Shown piece after piece: positions 3,695-44,862 of a stretch of 64,000 nt of DNA (position 1 is the stretch's first letter; each line of letters starts with the position of its first letter). The stretch is from Bacteroidota bacterium. GTDB lineage: Bacteria > Bacteroidota > Ignavibacteria > Kryptoniales > JAKASW01. The stretch lies in contig JAKAMG010000015.1 in assembly GCA_021812985.1 (NCBI GenBank), positions 1-64,000 on the forward strand, given 5' to 3'. A program made the translations under genes and the position numbers. Below the pieces are notes generated by a model. It was not told the DNA's origin, did no database searches, and was given only the letters and a program-made list of their open reading frames with translations.

Positions 3695-6600
3695 CTAAAA
3701 TTTCCCGTCCCCGGGCTTTTCGTTGAGTCCAATGAACTTATCTATGAGCTGAGCACGAATATCCTGAAGCGTGAATGGCTTGTGCAGAAGAGCTATGCCA
3801 CCATTGGTCATGATATCTTCGACCTTCCCTTCCGCGCTGTATCCGGTCGATACGAAGACTGGCAGATTTGACTTCAGGCTTCTGATTTGGAAATAAGTGT
3901 CTCTCCCATCCATGCCGGGCATTATCATATCCAGAACAACCAGATCAACATTCACTCCGCTCTTCAACAGTTCAAGCGCCTTTTCGCCGCTATCAGCAGT
4001 GAGTACCGTAAATCCGAAACGAGTCAGCGAGTCTTCGAGTATGTCTCGAATCTCTTTTTCATCATCGACGACAAGACAGGTTTTGTCTGATATGACTCTC
4101 TCAATCACATCTTCCGCGCGCGAACTCACAGTGGATACGACGTGCGTCGATGCGGGAAGGAATATTCTGAACGTGGTCCCTTTCTGAAGCTCACTCTGCA
4201 CTTCTACTTCGCCCCCATGGTTCTTCACTATTCCGTAGACCATAGAGAGTCCCAACCCTGTACCCTTTCCCTTCGGTTTCGTGGTGAAGAACGGTTCAAA
4301 CATCCTCGACTGAATTTCCTTCGAGACTCCCATGCCCGAGTCTGCCACTTCGACAACTATGTAAACTCTGTCCTCAAGTTCAAGCTTCACGTTCCCGCGT
4401 TGCTCAGGGCTGAGGAAGGAGGTTGATATTCTCAAAGTTCCTCCGTCGGGCATGGCATCTCGCGCGTTGATCGCGAGATTGAGCATAACTTGTGACAGTT
4501 GGGACTCATCTCCCTCAACCGGCGGCAGATTCTCGAAAAGGTCGAGCGTCACGATGATATTCTTTTCTATCAACTTCCTTGTCAGCTCGACCGTCTCCGC
4601 GCAGATACGGTTGAAGTCGACGGTTGTAACGCTAGTCTTGCCCGCCCGTGCGAACCCCAGGAGCTGCTTCGTGAGATCCGAGGCTCTCCTTGCCGATTTC
4701 TCTATTGTCGACAGGTATTTGACGAGCTTCTCGTTGTTCTTCAACTCGACCTTCATGAGCCCTGCGTATCCAAGGATGGCACCGAGAATATTGTTGAAGT
4801 CATGAGCCACACCGCCCGCGAGCGTTCCGAGGCTCTCCATTTTCTGCGAATGTCTGAGCTGTTCTTCAAGCCGCCTGGTCTCTGACTCGGTGACCTGCCG
4901 CTCATATTCGAAAGCCAGCCGCTGTTTGATCAGTTTGAGGATGCTCATCTGGGCGCGGCCCATCGCCAGCACCTTCTCGCTGGCCAGTACGATTAGACCA
5001 ACAGATCGATTGTTGACATCTATCGAGGTGGCATGATATGATTTCCAACCGTTTCCGTTCCTGAAAATCTCCCCGACTTTAATCAGCCCTTCAGGCTCGT
5101 TGCGGAGTAGCAGCTGAACACCCGTGAATGCAAATGTATGGAGATAATTGCTCCCTATTTTGGCGATCTGAGCCAGGCTCGTATCTTCTGAGTCGTTGCA
5201 TTCTCCGATGTAGACAAGCTCGGAGTTAAAAACATCGGACAGTAGGTCTGTGTAGCTCTGCACGAGATCTATTCCGCTCCGATTGAGTCCTACTTCATAC
5301 GCTCTTTCCATCCAATCGCCGGTACGGACGAGGTCGGAAACATCATTGAGGAACAGAATCTTCCGTGGGTTTCCCGCGTCAGTCGCTATACCGCTTGACA
5401 CAACGTCGAAGTGGTGTCTCAAGCCATCAATCACTGACGTCACCCTGTGCCGCTTCTCGGCGGAGCCACGCTTAATCATATCGGCCATGACCGAACGTGA
5501 AGATTCCTCGAAAAGTGGAACCAGGCTCTCACCCCTCAGAGAGGCCGCAGTCCTGCCGAAAGTTTCATCAAACTTGTCATTTGTAAACTCGATCCTCCCT
5601 GATTCATCCGTAACGACGATGAGGTCGCTGCTCGATTCAGTGATGGTCCTGTACCTCGTTTCCGATTCCTTGAGATCAGCATTCATTCTTTCCTTCTTGA
5701 GCGCGAGTGCCGCCTGGTGTGCAATGGCCTCAAGAAATTGAAGCTGCTCTTTGCCGAAGGCATGAGTCCTCGTGAAACTGTCGAGTGAGATTATTCCAAG
5801 GACTTCATTGTCTACCACGAGTGGAGCTGCGATGAAGGACTTGGGGCGGAACTCCTTCGGAAACTCCTTCATGCTGGGAGGTAAGCTCCCCCCCGAGGAA
5901 TCGCCGATTACGACAGGCCTTCCGCCCTCGAAAACCGCCTTAACCCATTCGTTACTTCTGTCAAACGCAAAGGCATCCCTCAAGTGAAGCGGATATCCCG
6001 ATGATGCGCTAAGCTTAAGCGTACCGGTAGATCTGTCATTTATCATGACTGCCCCCGCATCTGCGTTGGGGACGGCGCCACGAGCAGCAGCAATGAGCTT
6101 CTCAAGAAGTTCGTTTGAGTCCCTGCTGTGCATGAGAAGCATGTTGATATCGAGTAGCTCCTGGAGCTGCTGGGTTTTCTGCTCGAGATTCTTCCGCGCG
6201 ATTATCTCATCTGTGATATCACGGGCAACGGCAAGCAGACCAGTAATCTTTCCGTTTTCGGATATCGCCGTTACACTGTACCCCACTGTCCGTATCTCGC
6301 CTGATTTCCTGACCACGCGAAACTCGTACCTCGCGGGAGCTTCCTTACCGGTGATCCTTAGGAGATAGTAGTTCTTTACCATCTGGATGTCTTCCGGATG
6401 AATCAGGAAATCAAACTCCTTACCCAGTACCTCATCAGGCCGATAACCGGTAAGATCCTCGAATTTCGGGTTGACAAATAAAAGCTTTCCTTGAACACCG
6501 ACGAAAAGAACAGGGTCGTTCACGTTCTCGAGGACGAGCCTGTAAAGGCTCTCGCTGCGCTGAAGATTCTGATACAGGCGCGAATTATGGAACGCGATCC

Positions 6601-8053
6601 CGAACTGAGAAGTGAATATCTCAAGTGCCTCTTTATCAGATTCCGAAAACGGCTCGTCTTTGAGCCTCGTCATAGAAATCATTCCGAGAAGCTCATTGTT
6701 GTGGGTTATCGGAACGGCCAGAATATGTTCGACATTCGGACGACCGGAGGAGTAAACCGAGTTCGGGTTAAGGTGAGCGTCGTTCTCCAGGAGCGATCGC
6801 GATTCTAGCGCCGCCTTGCCAAGCAACCCCCTCCCCACTATGATTTCAGGGAACATGAATGAGGGGCGCTTCCCCTTTCTCACAACAATCTTCTTCTCAA
6901 CTAGTACATTTCTGTCCTTCTCAAAGAAGAAGAGCTGAACAACGTCAGCGGGTACTATCGTGTTCAGCTTCTCGTGAATGATATCGAATATCTTTTCGGG
7001 TTCGAGATTCTCGTGAAGCTGAGAGCTTATCTCATGAATCGCCTGGAGCTTGTGGTTTTGAATTATCTGAGATTTTACTGTCTGGTTGTACTCAAACAGT
7101 AGCGAACTAATATGAACGATGGCGTCAAACGCCTCGAGTTCCTCTTCGCTGAAGCTCTTCCGGACGTTGCCGACCACGATTCCGCCGAGAAGCTGGTCCT
7201 TACTATAGAAAGGCGCGTTGTAGATTGAAGACACGCCGGCAAACTTTTGTATCATTCGCGACGCCTGAGCCGGCATCGTCGTACCAAAGACATCTGCAAA
7301 ATCGTTGCCTACCCACGGTTTTCGCTCGAGCGTGTACTGATCAACTATGCAGTGCTCAGGGTCAAAGGGAAAGATGAAGCTGTCGAGCGAAATCCCGAAA
7401 AACATCTGCGCAAACTTGACAAGCTTCCCTTGTGGATATATACCGTAGACCGCGAACCCGTTCTGACGCGGGAAGTAACGCTGGAGGCTGACGGCCTTCA
7501 TGTCCAGCTTCCTGACAATCTGCTCCGCCATTTCTTGCATGACAGACTTCAAGTCGTTGGTTTCCACCATCTTGCGCACGAGGGAGGCAAGAATTTCGAG
7601 CTGATACGACTTAAAAGTCGACTGATGTCTTGATTCTATTGCTTCCCTGATGAACCCAATCCCCTCTACTCTTTCGAGGAGGACACGGGGGAACATTTTG
7701 ATCGCGACCTGTGTGAATGGGATGTAGGTATCAGCCCCCATTTGAATCGCGTCATGGTAGACTGAGTCGCTGTAATTCCTCGAGATGACTATGACCGGCA
7801 TGAAAGGGTCGATCTCTTTCGCCGATTTTATTATCGACTCCGGGTCCCCCACCGCGATGTCGAAATCAAGGACGACCGCGTCATACTTCTTTGTAGTGAG
7901 TTTTTTGTTTAGCCCTACTGAGCTGGGGAGAGTTTCCACGATGAACCCCAGGCGAGAGGCTTCGAGAACACGGATGAACTGCTCCCGCAGGTCCATCGAA
8001 TCCTCGAGTATTAGTACCTCTATCTCCTGAAAGGAACGCTTCTTCGTGGGCAC
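3695..8053 (-). CDS. Very large hybrid sensor histidine kinase (REC-GAF-GAF-PAS-GAF-PAS-GAF-HK-REC)
   Basis: 1452-residue cytoplasmic hybrid kinase without membrane segments. Approximate domains: receiver 11-125 (phospho-acceptor Asp63), GAF-type sensor domains 150-320, 340-495 and 635-790, PAS domains 500-620 and 795-915, a diverged GAF-like region 920-1050, HisKA 1070-1140 (GVAHDFNNI, His1084), ATPase 1185-1300 (with a GKGTGLGL motif) and a C-terminal receiver 1325-1445 (VVLDMIMPGMDG, Asp1375). The N-terminal receiver suggests input from another kinase; the C-terminal one suggests internal phosphotransfer. No partner regulator is adjacent, so it is an orphan. It starts with GTG, with AGGA only three bases away, so the exact start is slightly uncertain. 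Ligands of the GAF and PAS domains cannot be read from sequence. Confidence 0.9.
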   Translation of the reverse strand: MPTKKRSFQEIEVLILEDSMDLREQFIRVLEASRLGFIVETLPSSVGLNKKLTTKKYDAVVLDFDIAVGDPESIIKSAKEIDPFMPVIVISRNYSDSVYHDAIQMGADTYIPFTQVAIKMFPRVLLERVEGIGFIREAIESRHQSTFKSYQLEILASLVRKMVETNDLKSVMQEMAEQIVRKLDMKAVSLQRYFPRQNGFAVYGIYPQGKLVKFAQMFFGISLDSFIFPFDPEHCIVDQYTLERKPWVGNDFADVFGTTMPAQASRMIQKFAGVSSIYNAPFYSKDQLLGGIVVGNVRKSFSEEELEAFDAIVHISSLLFEYNQTVKSQIIQNHKLQAIHEISSQLHENLEPEKIFDIIHEKLNTIVPADVVQLFFFEKDRNVLVEKKIVVRKGKRPSFMFPEIIVGRGLLGKAALESRSLLENDAHLNPNSVYSSGRPNVEHILAVPITHNNELLGMISMTRLKDEPFSESDKEALEIFTSQFGIAFHNSRLYQNLQRSESLYRLVLENVNDPVLFVGVQGKLLFVNPKFEDLTGYRPDEVLGKEFDFLIHPEDIQMVKNYYLLRITGKEAPARYEFRVVRKSGEIRTVGYSVTAISENGKITGLLAVARDITDEIIARKNLEQKTQQLQELLDINMLLMHSRDSNELLEKLIAAARGAVPNADAGAVMINDRSTGTLKLSASSGYPLHLRDAFAFDRSNEWVKAVFEGGRPVVIGDSSGGSLPPSMKEFPKEFRPKSFIAAPLVVDNEVLGIISLDSFTRTHAFGKEQLQFLEAIAHQAALALKKERMNADLKESETRYRTITESSSDLIVVTDESGRIEFTNDKFDETFGRTAASLRGESLVPLFEESSRSVMADMIKRGSAEKRHRVTSVIDGLRHHFDVVSSGIATDAGNPRKILFLNDVSDLVRTGDWMERAYEVGLNRSGIDLVQSYTDLLSDVFNSELVYIGECNDSEDTSLAQIAKIGSNYLHTFAFTGVQLLLRNEPEGLIKVGEIFRNGNGWKSYHATSIDVNNRSVGLIVLASEKVLAMGRAQMSILKLIKQRLAFEYERQVTESETRRLEEQLRHSQKMESLGTLAGGVAHDFNNILGAILGYAGLMKVELKNNEKLVKYLSTIEKSARRASDLTKQLLGFARAGKTSVTTVDFNRICAETVELTRKLIEKNIIVTLDLFENLPPVEGDESQLSQVMLNLAINARDAMPDGGTLRISTSFLSPEQRGNVKLELEDRVYIVVEVADSGMGVSKEIQSRMFEPFFTTKPKGKGTGLGLSMVYGIVKNHGGEVEVQSELQKGTTFRIFLPASTHVVSTVSSRAEDVIERVISDKTCLVVDDEKEIRDILEDSLTRFGFTVLTADSGEKALELLKSGVNVDLVVLDMIMPGMDGRDTYFQIRSLKSNLPVFVSTGYSAEGKVEDIMTNGGIALLHKPFTLQDIRAQLIDKFIGLNEKPGDGKF

Positions 8054-8100
8054 TCTTCCTGTTTTTCAGTGAAGTTAACAACGGTCACAAAGTTTTCAAA

Positions 8101-8131
8101 TAAAAAAGGCATCCAATTTTGTGGATGCCTT
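8101..8131 (-). terminator. Intrinsic terminator of the primary sigma factor gene
   Basis: A perfect 10-bp stem (AAGGCATCCA at 8106-8115 with TGGATGCCTT at 8122-8131), a six-base loop, and a T-rich tail on the minus strand. It lies 20 bases past the stop codon. Confidence 0.9.
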
Positions 8132-8150
8132 CATCGGAGAGATATCCGAT

Positions 8151-9008
8151 TTAACCCAGGTAAGCCCTCAGCGCTTTGCTCCTTGTCGCATGGCGCAAAC
8201 GTCTTATGGCCTTTTCCTTTATCTGCCTCACCCTCTCACGGGTCAGGTTGAACTTTTCACCGATCTCCTCGAGGGTAAGAGGGTGCTCACGCTCTATTCC
8301 GAAGTAGAGACGTATAACCTCCGCTTCCCTGTCGGTCAGAGATTTCAAAGCCCGCTCGACCTCGGTGCGAAGCGACTCCTTCATCAGCGTATAATCGGGC
8401 GGTAGCTGGTTGTCATCCGCCATGACGTCAAGGAGCTTGTTGTCCTCGCCTTGCACGAAAGGTTGGTCGACAGAAAGATGCCTTCCGCTTATTTGCAGCG
8501 TCTTGTCGACCTCATACAAACTCATGTCGAGCTGTTCAGCGATTTCCGAGGGGCTCGGCTCTCTCTCGAACTCCTGTTCAAGCTCACTGAACTTCTTGCC
8601 AATCTTATTGAGGGCTCCGACCCGGTTGAGCGGGAGTCTGACGATCCTCGACTGCTCCGCCAATGCCTGGAGGATTGACTGCCGGATCCACCATACGGCA
8701 TAGGAGATGAACTTGAATCCGCGAGTGGGATCGAATCTCTTTGCGGCCTTTATCAGACCAAGGTTTCCCTCGTTGATGAGGTCACCCAAAGAGAGCCCCT
8801 GGTTCTGGTACTGCTTCGCGACACTTACAACGAACCTTAGATTTGCCTTTATAAGTTTTTCAAGAGATCTCTGGTCATTCTCTCTAACCTTAATCGCCAG
8901 CTCAATCTCCTCCTCGGGGGTCAGAAGATCTACCTTTCCAATCTCCTGCAGGTACTTGTCTATCGTCTGGTTTTCCCGGGAAGGATATTGCTTACCGACT
9001 TTTATCAT
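8151..9008 (-). CDS. rpoD: Primary RNA polymerase sigma factor (short RpoD/SigA type)
   Basis: 285-residue sigma-70 factor. It lacks the long region 1.1 and the non-conserved insert of the E. coli protein, which is the usual form in Bacteroidota and Chlorobi relatives. Visible regions: 1.2 (about 14-45), 2.1-2.4 (about 50-130, with [19 protein letters not shown] and the -10 binding [11 protein letters not shown]), region 3, and region 4.2 with the helix-turn-helix [20 protein letters not shown]. Such a complete region 2/4 pair marks a primary, not an alternative, sigma factor. The ATG has a Shine-Dalgarno GAGGAA. It is monocistronic with its own terminator. Confidence 0.95.
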
Positions 9009-40362: not shown

Positions 40363-41607
40363 TCAGAGTCTATAGCTCAAATCAAGGCCAATCACGTTCG
40401 CCGTGGTATTATACGTGCCGTTGAACCCATAGACCGAATTCGTAATCGTCCTCTGCTTGAACGGGAGGAACATATAAGAGGCACTCAAACCGACATGCTG
40501 CGTGAGGTTTACTCCCACGCCGACATTGACTCCAAACCTGTCTGCATCCGGAAGCACCGGCAAATCGTAAGCATCAGGTATGGGATTCTTGTCATAGAAC
40601 ACACCTGCCCTCGCCGTCCAGACGTCATTGATCATGTACTCTCCGCCCGCGCGCAAGAGGTAAGTGTTGCTATAATTACCGACAAGGCTGCTGTTCTGTT
40701 GCAGCGTCGTGTGAGTCGCGAAGTTTATATCCAACTGTTTGTATGCACTCCAACCCACATACTGGTAGTCTGCTTCAATCGAGTAGTTATCTCCCTTGTA
40801 GGCAATTCCGGCGTACCATGTTTCCGGAAATGGCAGCGAAGTCGAGACCGAGCCACCCGGTAGCTGAGATGCAAGCACTCCTGCCTGGGAGAAAGTCGCA
40901 GTCCCGCTATTCGCCTCAAACGTAATCTTGCTTCTGTAAGAAAAGCCCAGTGACAGATTCTTAACAGGCTTCAGCATAACTCCGAAATTGAAACCTGTAC
41001 CGGAGGCATTGCCGTTCATGTGAATGAAGGGGCTGATCGGGTTTCCGAGTGAATCACTGAATGGAGTAGATATGTATCGTTCCAGCGTGACGCTTCCCAG
41101 AGCGTAGTCGAAACCAACGCCGACTGCGATCACGTCTTTATACGAGTAGGAAATAGTCGGGTTAATGTCAAACGACTGAAGATTGATCTTTGTGACAATA
41201 TACTTGCCGACCCAGTTGGCTGGCCAGCTCGTTCCAAGCCCCTCCGGCGTAAACACGCCAACTCCTGCTGCGAAGCCATTGTCAAAGTTGTATGTCACAT
41301 AGGCATTCGGCGGGAAAAAAGTGAGAGAGTTCATCTTTGTTTCAGTGTTGTTCGGATAAGGGCCGGTGAAAGTTGTGCTCGGCAGAATGAGCGTCCCGCC
41401 CACCATGACGTTGAATCCCTTCACGAAACTCAGTCCAGCCGGGTTGAAATAGATCGCCGACGGATCATCCGCACGGGCGACAAATGCTCCCCCCATCGAC
41501 ACGGCTTTCGCGCCATGTTCGTTAAGCTGGTATCCACTTGCGAACGCTACTGCCGCGGATGATAGAAGCGTGACGACAAGCGCCAATACCCTTTTTGTAG
41601 AAGCCAC
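40363..41607 (-). CDS. FadL/OmpP1/TodX-family outer-membrane channel
   Basis: 414 residues with a signal peptide (cleavage after AFA) and the FadL N-terminal hatch signature SGYQLNEHGAKAVSMGGAF, then ADDPSAIYFNPAG. The remainder is made of alternating hydrophobic strands and ends in the aromatic/hydrophobic LDLSYRL typical of a beta-barrel. The family moves long-chain fatty acids or hydrophobic compounds across the outer membrane. GTG start with a strong Shine-Dalgarno (AGGAGGT). It shares a transcript with the GDSL lipoprotein. Confidence 0.93.
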   Translation of the reverse strand: MASTKRVLALVVTLLSSAAVAFASGYQLNEHGAKAVSMGGAFVARADDPSAIYFNPAGLSFVKGFNVMVGGTLILPSTTFTGPYPNNTETKMNSLTFFPPNAYVTYNFDNGFAAGVGVFTPEGLGTSWPANWVGKYIVTKINLQSFDINPTISYSYKDVIAVGVGFDYALGSVTLERYISTPFSDSLGNPISPFIHMNGNASGTGFNFGVMLKPVKNLSLGFSYRSKITFEANSGTATFSQAGVLASQLPGGSVSTSLPFPETWYAGIAYKGDNYSIEADYQYVGWSAYKQLDINFATHTTLQQNSSLVGNYSNTYLLRAGGEYMINDVWTARAGVFYDKNPIPDAYDLPVLPDADRFGVNVGVGVNLTQHVGLSASYMFLPFKQRTITNSVYGFNGTYNTTANVIGLDLSYRL

Positions 41608-41784
41608 AGACTACCTCCTTTTTGTTTTGGCTGATGCGCTAATTTGCTTCATCCCTGAAACAAATTCAAACTGCCTTGAAGAGGAACCTCCACCTCATAG
41701 TAGAGATTATTTTGCACGATTTCCTCGCTTGTTCAGCTTATCTGGAGGGATTATTTTGTCTCCACCAAACGAAAGGAACCACCC

Positions 41785-43491
41785 ATGGAGATCAAAGGAA
41801 AAACAGTCCTTGTTCTTGGCGGATGGGGCTTGGTGGGCTCTGCTATCTGCCGGAAACTCGTACCGGAACAACCTGAAAAAATCATTGTCTCGTCACTTCT
41901 AAAATCTGAAGCGCTGGACGCGGTCGAACAGCTGCGCAGCGAATACCCAGACCACGATCCCGATTTCTTTGTACCATATTACGGAAACATCTTCGTGCGC
42001 GAGGACTTCAAGGACCTCCGGCGCGAAGACATTCTTGGCAACTCGGAGAGAAGACGAGTACTTATATCGGACACACTCGGCGAACTCTCGGAGGAAACAC
42101 TGAAGGCAAGCGCGGTATACAACCTTATCACGGACTACCGGCCCGAACTAATCATAGACTGTATTAATTCTGCCACGGCAATTGCGTACCAGGATCAGTT
42201 CCAATCGAGTCGCTCCCTGCTAAAGGAACTCGACAAGTCTAAATCTGGAGAGGAAAACATACTCTACGATTCGATCGAGCGTCTCCTCTGCACTCTGTAC
42301 ACACCACAGCTGATAAGACACATTCAGCTTCTCTACCGGTCGATGCATGATGCCGGCACGAAAATGTATCTTAAGATCGGCACGAGCGGAACAGGAGGAA
42401 TGGGACTAAACATTCCTTACACACACAGCGAGGAGAAACCAAGCAGCGTTCTTTTGAGCAAGTCCGCGGTCGCGGGGGCGCATACCCTCCTCATGTTCCT
42501 GATGGGGCGTACTCCAGACGCGCCGATAACAAAGGAAATAAAACCGACGGCGGCCATTGCTTGGAAGCGTGTCGGCTTCGGTGAAATAAAGAGGAGGGGA
42601 AAGCCAATTCTACTTCAGGACTGCTCTCCCGATGACCCGTACGTTATCGGCGACCATCTTGAACTGCGGACCGCGGCCAAGACCCGGATCACAGACGAGA
42701 CCCTTCACTCAGTCTTCATTGACACAGGAGAGAACGGACTCTTCTCGAGGGGCGAGTTTGAAGCCATCACGACACCTGGGCAGATGGAATATGTCACGCC
42801 GGAGGAAATCGCGGAAGACGTCGTCTTCGAGATAAAGGGGGGCAACACGGGCCACGATATTATCAACGCGCTGGACAACGCGACGCTCGCTCCGACTTAC
42901 AGGGCAGGATATTTGTTTCACTCTGCGTTCGACAGGATGCGCGAACTGGAGCACAAGCACAACGTCGACAGCGTGGCGTTTGAACTCCTCGGCCCACCGA
43001 GACTCTCGAAGCTCCTCTACGAGAGCTATCTCCTGTCAAGAGAATTCGGAAGTTTCGATGCCATCGAAAAGACATCACCTGAAACGATGTCCCACGAACT
43101 CGTCAGGATGATCAGGGAAGACGGAAAACTCCGCTCGGAAATAATATCGATTGGAATTCCGATACTTCTTCCAGACGGCAAGAGCCTGCTGAGGGGCGAG
43201 GAAATAAAGATCCCACCCTACCGCGGCGAAGGGACATTACCATCCAGCAAGAAGGCGGTAGATGCGTGGGCCCACGACGGCTGGGTCGATCTGCGCGTCG
43301 CCAACATGTCTCTGTGGAAAGAGAGGCTGAAAGCGATCATTTCAATGACAGAGCCGATACCTCACGGGGATACAAGCTCGAGATTCATTTACACGAAAGA
43401 GTACTGGAATAACTTCGAGACAATTGAGCCAGGCAAGGTAGTTGGATGGATCTTCTCGTACGAGGAAAAGGGGCTGAGGATGAAGGCGTGA
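41785..43491 (+). CDS. Uncharacterised Rossmann-fold (SDR-like) protein, 568 residues
   Basis: I do not recognise a named family. The N-terminus has a dinucleotide-binding pattern VLVLGGWGLVGSAI (GGxGxxG at 12-18). Residues about 115-135 (ELIIDCINSATAIAY) look like the beta4 end of an SDR sheet and GTSGTGGMGLNIPY near 205-220 replaces the usual catalytic Ser region. The rest, about 300 residues, is unlike SDR enzymes: DTGENGLFSRGEFEAIT and GGNTGHDIINALDN are notable. No signal peptide or membrane segment. It is monocistronic, divergent from FadL and convergent with the efflux operon. The ATG has AAGGAA as Shine-Dalgarno, eight bases away. Confidence 0.85.
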   Translation: MEIKGKTVLVLGGWGLVGSAICRKLVPEQPEKIIVSSLLKSEALDAVEQLRSEYPDHDPDFFVPYYGNIFVREDFKDLRREDILGNSERRRVLISDTLGELSEETLKASAVYNLITDYRPELIIDCINSATAIAYQDQFQSSRSLLKELDKSKSGEENILYDSIERLLCTLYTPQLIRHIQLLYRSMHDAGTKMYLKIGTSGTGGMGLNIPYTHSEEKPSSVLLSKSAVAGAHTLLMFLMGRTPDAPITKEIKPTAAIAWKRVGFGEIKRRGKPILLQDCSPDDPYVIGDHLELRTAAKTRITDETLHSVFIDTGENGLFSRGEFEAITTPGQMEYVTPEEIAEDVVFEIKGGNTGHDIINALDNATLAPTYRAGYLFHSAFDRMRELEHKHNVDSVAFELLGPPRLSKLLYESYLLSREFGSFDAIEKTSPETMSHELVRMIREDGKLRSEIISIGIPILLPDGKSLLRGEEIKIPPYRGEGTLPSSKKAVDAWAHDGWVDLRVANMSLWKERLKAIISMTEPIPHGDTSSRFIYTKEYWNNFETIEPGKVVGWIFSYEEKGLRMKA

Positions 43492-43501
43492 TTATGTGTT
43501 A

Positions 43502-43584
43502 GGTGGAATGCCGGTTTTCTGGCCTAAATGCCAAAAGGGATAATGAGAATAATGAACCTGTCCCCGTCAGTCCTGCATTCCACC
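43502..43584. repeat. Inverted repeat between convergent genes
   Basis: GGTGGAATGC at 43502-43511 and GCATTCCACC at 43575-43584 are perfect complements. Inside lies a smaller TGGC/GCCA hairpin flanked by TTTT and AAAA (about 43515-43536). It sits between the 568-residue gene and the efflux operon and may serve as a two-way transcription stop, though no clean T run follows the outer arms. Confidence 0.5.
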
Positions 43585-43614
43585 ACTCCGCCAATTCTTC
43601 ATCCCAATAGTTAA

Positions 43615-44862
43615 TTACTCATATCTCAGGGATTCAATCGGGTCGACGCTGGCAGCTTTGTAGGCGGGATAGACTCCGAAGGTAACGCCGACAAGCGAAC
43701 AGACTACAAGCCCGATCATTGCCCAGTCGAGAGGAAAAGCGGCCTTCATGTGAAGCGCCAGTGCGGCGAGGTTGCCTCCGATTAGGCCAAGAAGAATTCC
43801 GACAACTCCACCTACCTCGCATAGTACCACAGCCTCGAGTAGGAACTGCGCAAGTATGTTCCTCTTCGTAGCGCCGATTGATTTCCGAACTCCTATCTCC
43901 CTTGTCCGCTCCGTCACACCCACGAGCATAATATTCATTATTCCGACACCGGCAGCCAAGAGCGCGATCGCGCTAACCACGATGGCGCCTATCCTGACAT
44001 AAAATGTTATGTCATTGAACTGGCTGATCAGGGATGCGTTCGATACTATTTCAAAGTCATCCGGTTTGCCGGGCGGGACCTTCCTGATAGCTCTCAGAAG
44101 GCCCTCCACTTGTTCTTGCGTTGCCGTAAAGTCCTTCTGATCCTTCGACTGAATATAAAAGTCCAGGCTTCTCTGGCTCCCGTACCTCGCAAAAAAAGTC
44201 GAGATAGGGATAACCATGTAATACTGCTGACCTCCTACCACATTCCCCTGGTCCTGGATTATACCAACGACCCTATAGCCGATCCCGTCCACCTTCACAT
44301 CAGCGCCGAGACCGTCGCTGTGGGGAAAAAGCGTCTTAGCCAAGTCAGGACTCAGTACCGTGGCAAGTCTTCCGACCTCAATATCGCTTTGCGTCAGAGC
44401 GCGTCCCTCGCCAATTTTCTCGTTACGCGCCTGAAAAATATCCGGGGTGACACCGATGACGTCCACGTTTGGGTTCGTCTTCTGGTCTTTGTAAATAACG
44501 ATCTTCCCTCCCCTGTCCGCCATCACCCCTACGGCACTGGCCAGGGTTGCCTTATCCTTGAGTATGTTGGCCTGCTCAAAGGTCAGGTCCTTCCGGTTAC
44601 GATACTTCATCCACCAGCCGGGGCCGCCGGCATGGAACACCGGGAATTTCGTTATGACAAAAACGTTTGAACCGAGGGAGTTCAGCTCGCCTTCGATATT
44701 GTTCTGCAGGACGCGCATCGCAGTGGTCACGGCAATAATCGAAAAAACTCCGATCACAATGCCGAGCAACGTCAGAATCGATCTCAGCTTATTTGATTTG
44801 ATCGCGGCGAGCGCCATCATGAAGCTCTCGGACCATTCAGACCACAAAAAGGATTTATTCAT
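43615..44862 (-). CDS. MacB-type ABC permease (second of two)
   Basis: 415-residue permease of the MacB/FtsX class: one N-terminal membrane helix (about 25-45), a large periplasmic MacB_PCD domain (about 50-275) and three C-terminal helices. The C-terminal coupling region reads VTERTREIGVRKSIGATKRNI. It lacks its own ATPase domain and presumably pairs with the ATPase and the other permease in the operon. It is a diverged relative of its neighbour, 38 bases upstream. Its stop is near the inverted repeat at 43502-43584. Confidence 0.93.
   Translation of the reverse strand: MNKSFLWSEWSESFMMALAAIKSNKLRSILTLLGIVIGVFSIIAVTTAMRVLQNNIEGELNSLGSNVFVITKFPVFHAGGPGWWMKYRNRKDLTFEQANILKDKATLASAVGVMADRGGKIVIYKDQKTNPNVDVIGVTPDIFQARNEKIGEGRALTQSDIEVGRLATVLSPDLAKTLFPHSDGLGADVKVDGIGYRVVGIIQDQGNVVGGQQYYMVIPISTFFARYGSQRSLDFYIQSKDQKDFTATQEQVEGLLRAIRKVPPGKPDDFEIVSNASLISQFNDITFYVRIGAIVVSAIALLAAGVGIMNIMLVGVTERTREIGVRKSIGATKRNILAQFLLEAVVLCEVGGVVGILLGLIGGNLAALALHMKAAFPLDWAMIGLVVCSLVGVTFGVYPAYKAASVDPIESLRYE

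Follow-up and report, generated by a model that had tools for sequence, protein, structure and literature searches.

What kind of protein is encoded at positions 41785–43491 of the window, as we call the whole stretch of 64,000 nucleotides that was analysed? The initial annotation had described a lone Rossmann-fold protein of 568 residues outside any recognisable family, and as an observation this description was confirmed. The open reading frame list and the translation give a plus-strand frame of 568 aa with an ATG at 41785 and a stop codon ending at 43491, and all parts of the gene located below by coordinate lie on the same strand. GGWGLVG is found at residues 12–18 of the translation together with both motifs that had been quoted, and direct reading of the sequence shows the Shine-Dalgarno-like AAAGGA (41772–41777) 7 nt before the ATG, matching the Shine-Dalgarno previously noted. 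In a greedy ORF map of the window with a minimum ORF length of 80 aa, no plus-strand ORF other than this gene was kept from 17.5 to 64 kb, a region in which it had been called the sole gene of this strand. Both neighbours, labelled by eye as a FadL-like outer-membrane protein and an ABC permease, are on the opposite strand and separated from the gene by gaps of 177 nt upstream and 123 nt downstream. Its description as monocistronic thus agrees with the gene layout and is read from this layout only, as a consensus scan of 41500–43720 detected neither promoter-like nor terminator-like sites for the plus strand; the two promoter-like and two terminator-like sites detected are all on the minus strand and not above shuffled sequences. 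A genome search with homologue matches gave one match for the family in the genome of the window.

Profile searches, as suggested in the initial annotation, led to weak and mostly N-terminal Rossmann matches in Pfam, NCBIfam and the PDB sequences. The protein reached 13.5 bits with PF02719 (Polysacc_synt_2, gathering cut-off 20.2) and 13.4 bits with PF01370 (cut-off 20.9), both below the cut-off, and its best NCBIfam match (E 0.0032) was far under the cut-off as well, so that, by the curated cut-offs of Pfam-A and NCBIfam, the protein indeed has no recognisable family. Against the PDB sequences the best E-value was 0.01 for the single sequence and 4e-4 for the profile, and all matches but one (E 0.76) fall within the first 107 residues. 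The best PDB match of the profile is a UDP-GlcNAc 4,6-dehydratase (residues 5–60), 37 of 46 family members match PF02719 with E-values up to 0.1 (best 7.2e-6), and a homologue from another family has weak matches (E 6e-4 and 0.07) to two genes on plasmids, whose annotation is nucleoside-diphosphate-sugar epimerase/dehydratase. A search that included the phylum of one Wallbacteria bin gave ten weak places outside the family, and all four that were read carry STDKAVNPTS[VI]MGATK and are hence of the Mx3K type described below, two of them sharing the same local string. Among the outside proteins seen, those closest to the family by sequence and predicted model are UDP-GlcNAc dehydratases, some of them of the Tyr-less Mx3K type. 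These weak sequence links to dehydratases span about the first 60–155 residues and count less for this reason, as any Rossmann fold could share this part.

Structure prediction, the second check that had been proposed, located an SDR-fold Rossmann core in the full-length protein. The AlphaFold2 model was built from 46 sequences (pLDDT 82.9, pTM 0.79) and falls below a pLDDT of 50 in residues 201–220 and 354–367. With VIA the best alignment of this predicted model had a Z-score of 16.6 (rmsd 3.5, 232 residues), and the 50 rows contain SDRs at Z 14.7–16.6 over 186–242 residues with classical SDRs leading. Foldseek placed Pen and PglF on top (E 1.3e-6 to 1.8e-6), with low query-normalised TM-scores of 0.16–0.29 in the 50 rows. 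From the 50 VIA alignments 32 end at residues 368–386 and 18 reach a last aligned residue at 561–568, and by these ends about 195 of the 568 residues look extra, so the earlier statement that more than half of the protein is not SDR-like was too strong. The SDR-like region ends in a conserved block at residues 314–373 (42724–42903), defined by alignment, VIA and the model, which includes the low-confidence segment 354–367. Folded alone, the mostly helical C-terminal 201 residues (368–568, 42886–43488) gave a pLDDT of 80.5, weaker in the first 40 residues, and neither Foldseek (best E 3.5) nor VIA (best Z 2.5, rmsd 5.3, 86 residues, among 95 chains aligned) found a convincing structural match in the PDB. 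A DNA-glycosylase-like fold was rejected for this part, since its Z-scores of 2.0–2.5 only were treated as chance. We regard the C-terminal part as a candidate for a new fold, which the absence of a PDB match does not prove, and in the model the last helix may pack on the SDR core. The earlier interpretation was thus supported in part: the core and its helical extension agree with the proposal of a large SDR that carries an added domain.

The GxxGxxG nucleotide-binding loop near the N-terminus (residues 12–18, 41818–41838) is present, with G12, G15, V17 and G18 found in all of the 116 unique homologues in our alignment, for which the lowest identity to the window protein is 45%. Strand 2 ends with I-V-S-S-L (S37 in 114/116) and possesses no acidic residue, which by general rule leans to NADP(H) and would suggest this cofactor from the sequence. 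In the model, strand 194–198 is followed by the near-invariant 22-residue loop GTSGTGGMGLNIPYTHSEEKPS (residues 199–220, 42379–42444), the least confident part of the model, and by helix 221–242. At the end of strand 5 T200 is present in 116/116 sequences, followed by S (109), T (6) or A (1) at position 201, and His214, Ser215 and Glu216 are found in 115 of the 116 with one X. The loop layout S..VYG...E...P..xY..[ST]K of extended SDRs from the same genome reads onto TSGTGGMG...E..P..xV..SK of the family, and this fit places Val222 (42448–42450) on the catalytic Tyr and Lys226 (42460–42462) on the catalytic Lys, a register that comes from motif reading and predicted secondary structure and not from a residue-level structural alignment. 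Motif reading in 15 sequences gave nine plausible S...Yx3K windows, one ambiguous (L164), one wrong (W1) and four none; two hhalign runs against SDRs of the same genome gave probabilities of 49.7% and 85.5% with the active-site columns out of register in both. In the motif register the Lys of the catalytic Yx3K is kept in 116/116 sequences and Tyr is absent from all of them, position 222 being V in 103, M in nine, P in two and Q in two. The Met variants come from three genomes in the phylum of one Wallbacteria bin (G272–G274), from families f21 and f29 and from one f11 sequence, and the named Wallbacteria sequence L098 carries Val. The dehydratase motif [ST]DK is absent after strand 5, where T-S/T/A-G stands instead of T-D-K. 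With the usual catalytic Tyr absent in this register, the new oxidoreductase family suggested before stays a proposal.

SDR enzymes without this Tyr are known to be active. Passages of three papers (PMC8987622, PMC3699295, PMC5774825) describe active Mx3K enzymes, a type that the first of them defines by a TDK motif behind strand 5 together with Met in place of the Tyr. PglF and WbpM are active without Tyr, and PglF uses a Thr-Asp pair to remove the C4-OH proton and the next Lys for the dehydration (PMC8987622); CapE and WbjB likewise have Met instead of Tyr (PMC3699295 and PMC5774825), and a table in PMC8987622 lists Pen as a Tyr-containing 5,6-dehydratase. With the Mx3K UDP-GlcNAc dehydratases PglF and WbpM the family shares the SDR fold, GxxGxxG, the Thr after strand 5, the conserved Lys and the lack of a catalytic Tyr, and Met occurs at the Tyr position in the nine members mentioned. 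In contrast, the Asp-Lys of TDK is replaced by Ser/Thr/Ala-Gly, the loop before the helix is longer, Val is the main residue at the Tyr position and the C-terminal part of about 195 residues is added. The combination of TDK and Met that marks a Mx3K 4,6-dehydratase was thus not found, and membership in the 4,6-dehydratases was rejected as the acid/base pair Asp-Lys is missing. PF01370 or GalE-type extended SDRs have the same loop layout, whereas the family lacks their Tyr and the window protein stays below the Pfam cut-off. Classical SDR reductases (FabG, PhqE/MalC, 15-PGDH and others) share the core fold over the VIA range given above, but show only 9–17% identity in the 50 rows, possess the YxxxK that is missing here and are about half as long.

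By sequence and predicted model, the protein combines a Rossmann nucleotide loop and the SDR fold with the invariant Lys226 and Thr200, no Tyr, a conserved loop of 22 residues and an extra part at the C-terminus. With moderate confidence we read it as an NAD(P)-binding member of a Tyr-less subfamily of extended-type SDRs, which would probably act on a polar activated substrate in an NAD(P)-dependent reaction and use the mobile loop in the chemistry. Bound NAD(P)+ would take a hydride from the substrate, or NAD(P)H would give one, and the substrate would be polar and probably nucleotide- or phosphate-activated. The proton might be handled by Thr200 and Lys226 instead of Tyr, by analogy to the Mx3K enzyme PglF, where the Thr/Asp pair replaces Tyr, and His214, Ser215 or Glu216 of the mobile loop could assist. 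The C-terminal part may close over the substrate and add conserved Arg, Lys and Glu side chains. As Thr is kept and the Asp-Lys pair lost, Tyr-independent redox chemistry appears plausible, and oxidation, reduction or epimerisation would be more likely than 4,6-dehydration, which is not favoured. The Tyr in the top fold match Pen, the absence of [ST]DK and the low Foldseek TM-scores speak against this model, as do the motif-based register of residue 222, the confinement of the weak sequence links to the N-terminal part, the low model confidence in the loop and the lack of a recurrent sugar-nucleotide gene nearby. The family is real, strongly conserved and unnamed; it does not represent an entirely new enzyme type, and it may show another way in which SDR enzymes work without their tyrosine. 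A further reading, which we consider unlikely, sees in it an Ignavibacteria/Kryptonia-type core enzyme with a new SDR active site, in which Thr-Lys and the His-Ser-Glu loop replace Ser-Tyr-Lys and Asp-Lys, a new-fold C-terminal domain and a reaction undescribed in these bacteria.

The genome neighbourhood, whose comparison had also been recommended, revealed no partner gene common across lineages and different partners at clade level. Neighbour counts include some genomes twice, as the sets of relatives, named contigs and phylum genomes overlap, and automatic neighbour calls are imperfect in GC-rich loci, where 4 of 129 loci lack an anchor; the family gene was recovered in L139, L150 and L156 despite the missing anchor, and the neighbours of L149 were compared with those of L139, L140 and L148. 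The opposite strand carries a PtsN-like gene (below the NCBIfam cut-off) in 58 loci, eight Kryptonia-type loci have an isochorismatase-type gene (PF00857) downstream, and FtsZ, PriA, PurN and cytidylate kinase were identified by eye in others. Sugar pathways are not reflected, as no recurrent sugar-nucleotide gene was found beside the family gene in the loci compared, and such a pathway was rejected as a conclusion from neighbours; a UDP-glucose-dehydrogenase-like gene (by eye) occurs in three loci, on median not adjacent, and a possible glycosyltransferase (by eye) lies upstream in L093. Some contexts would fit an enzyme of acyl, keto-acid or aldehyde metabolism, a reductase or dehydrogenase that depends on NAD(P) and has a substrate unrelated to nucleotide sugars. 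A fused 2-oxoacid-dehydrogenase E1-like gene is found upstream on the same strand in four loci of the same-phylum families f23 and f33, directly so in L139, L148 and L149 and with an E2-like lipoyl sequence (by eye) in between in L140, with enoyl-CoA hydratase genes in the vicinity. Seven loci contain an aldehyde dehydrogenase gene on the same strand (directly upstream in five), an L-glutamate-semialdehyde dehydrogenase adjoins the family gene on the opposite strand in L141, and classical SDRs head the VIA table. However, none of these contexts extends beyond one or two clades, neighbours elsewhere are unrelated, and the active site without Tyr is unlike that of classical SDR reductases, so we regard this function as possible but doubtful. 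Since the neighbour sets differ by clade no common pathway emerges, and function inferred from neighbours was rejected in general for want of a cross-lineage partner.

Three other features were seen in these loci. L140 contains an IS110-type-transposase-like ORF (by eye) between the enoyl-CoA hydratase gene and the fused E1-like gene (L140:3968–4900 and 4913–8301). Several families of the same class (L143, L145, L146, L153, L155, L158) encode a secreted-looking protein of about 1,600 aa close to the family gene and in its orientation, and from the two that were scanned the one in L143 has a C-terminal FlgD Ig-like stretch and the one in L146 a weak sortase-like stretch. In an f21 genome a 459-aa metallo-beta-lactamase-domain protein (PF00753) follows the family gene (L157:10066–11445), with a similar protein by eye in L147.

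MAT2B is a non-catalytic SDR-fold protein of the NAD(P)H-sensing or structural-subunit type, and its chains are among the weak profile matches (E 0.14–0.17). A similar role as sensor or structural subunit would agree with the loss of Tyr throughout the alignment and with the mobile loop, but we consider it improbable: the (near-)invariant Lys226, Thr200 and His/Ser/Glu loop are more typical of an active than of a retired site, no partner gene is found across lineages, and the related Tyr-less enzymes are active (passages in PMC8987622). Very unlikely is a characterised enzyme missed by incomplete profile libraries, as the comparison, which covered Pfam, NCBIfam, PADLOC and the PDB sequences, revealed in Pfam, NCBIfam or the PDB sequences no characterised family that matches over the full length at more than 40% identity. 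The window protein also had no plasmid match, and the papers searched contain nothing on the family including its motif string GTGGMGLN, though papers seldom print such strings.

To describe the distribution we counted matches at E <= 0.001. They occur in 46 of 61 relatives, in 203 of 293 genomes of the class (201 of 289 of good quality; a few are fragments only) and in 51 of 198 genomes of the phylum; of the latter 45 hold a nearly full-length copy, five give a weak N-terminal match and one has a fragment containing a stop. Families f3, f14 and f15 are examples of groups with no match among the rows listed for these three sets. Nearly all listed genomes have one match and some have two, and the second matches listed among relatives and phylum genomes are contig-end fragments or one weak match. 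Among named contigs 130 stretches encode relatives, and the best 80 of the 130 bear titles of Ignavibacteria, Kryptonia, Melioribacteraceae, unspecified Bacteroidetes, Chlorobiota, one Deferribacteres bin and two bins of Wallbacteria. When the phylum of one of these last two was searched, 15 of 39 genomes gave a match (five full length, one cut by a contig end, nine weak N-terminal). The reach is thus limited mostly to one class with scattered members elsewhere.

The motifs that had been called conserved-looking are near-invariant over the 116 homologues and not a result of chance; 99 positions are at least 98.5% identical, and many charged residues are invariant in both halves of the protein. 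Compared with ten same-genus loci the window protein shows 80–86% identity, whereas the two genes upstream of the family gene show 59–72% and 63–80%, always below the family protein of the same locus. The adjacent ABC permease (69–90%) is below it in seven of nine loci, and the ABC ATPase is more conserved in the one locus compared (88 vs 82%). From its presence in the 203 class genomes and its conservation above the two upstream genes, the family presumably has a regular cellular role, yet it is unnamed in Pfam and NCBIfam.

In a quick tree of the 116 sequences, with 28 of 113 inner branches open and long branches flagged, the window genus (13 rows) and the order-mates f2 (five rows) form one clade each and several other families also cluster, the pattern that mainly vertical descent would give. 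For the named bins, NCBI phylum labels, limited by many titles reading only 'Bacteroidetes bacterium', sort poorly (five groups required 13 changes against a mean of 15.0 after shuffling, and 17 of 200 shuffles reached so low a number) and genus and family handles sort better; transfers of the gene between lineages are not excluded. A mobile-element, phage or defence gene was rejected, as the window protein had no match on plasmids, no relative was found in viral contigs, though 13 stretches fit a pattern, and no PADLOC family matched. Two copies in other genomes may be decayed or interrupted: a 100-residue remnant with one TAG (G197:C16:8291–8590) and a full-length copy reported with one in-frame TAA (G129:C150:10208–11905).
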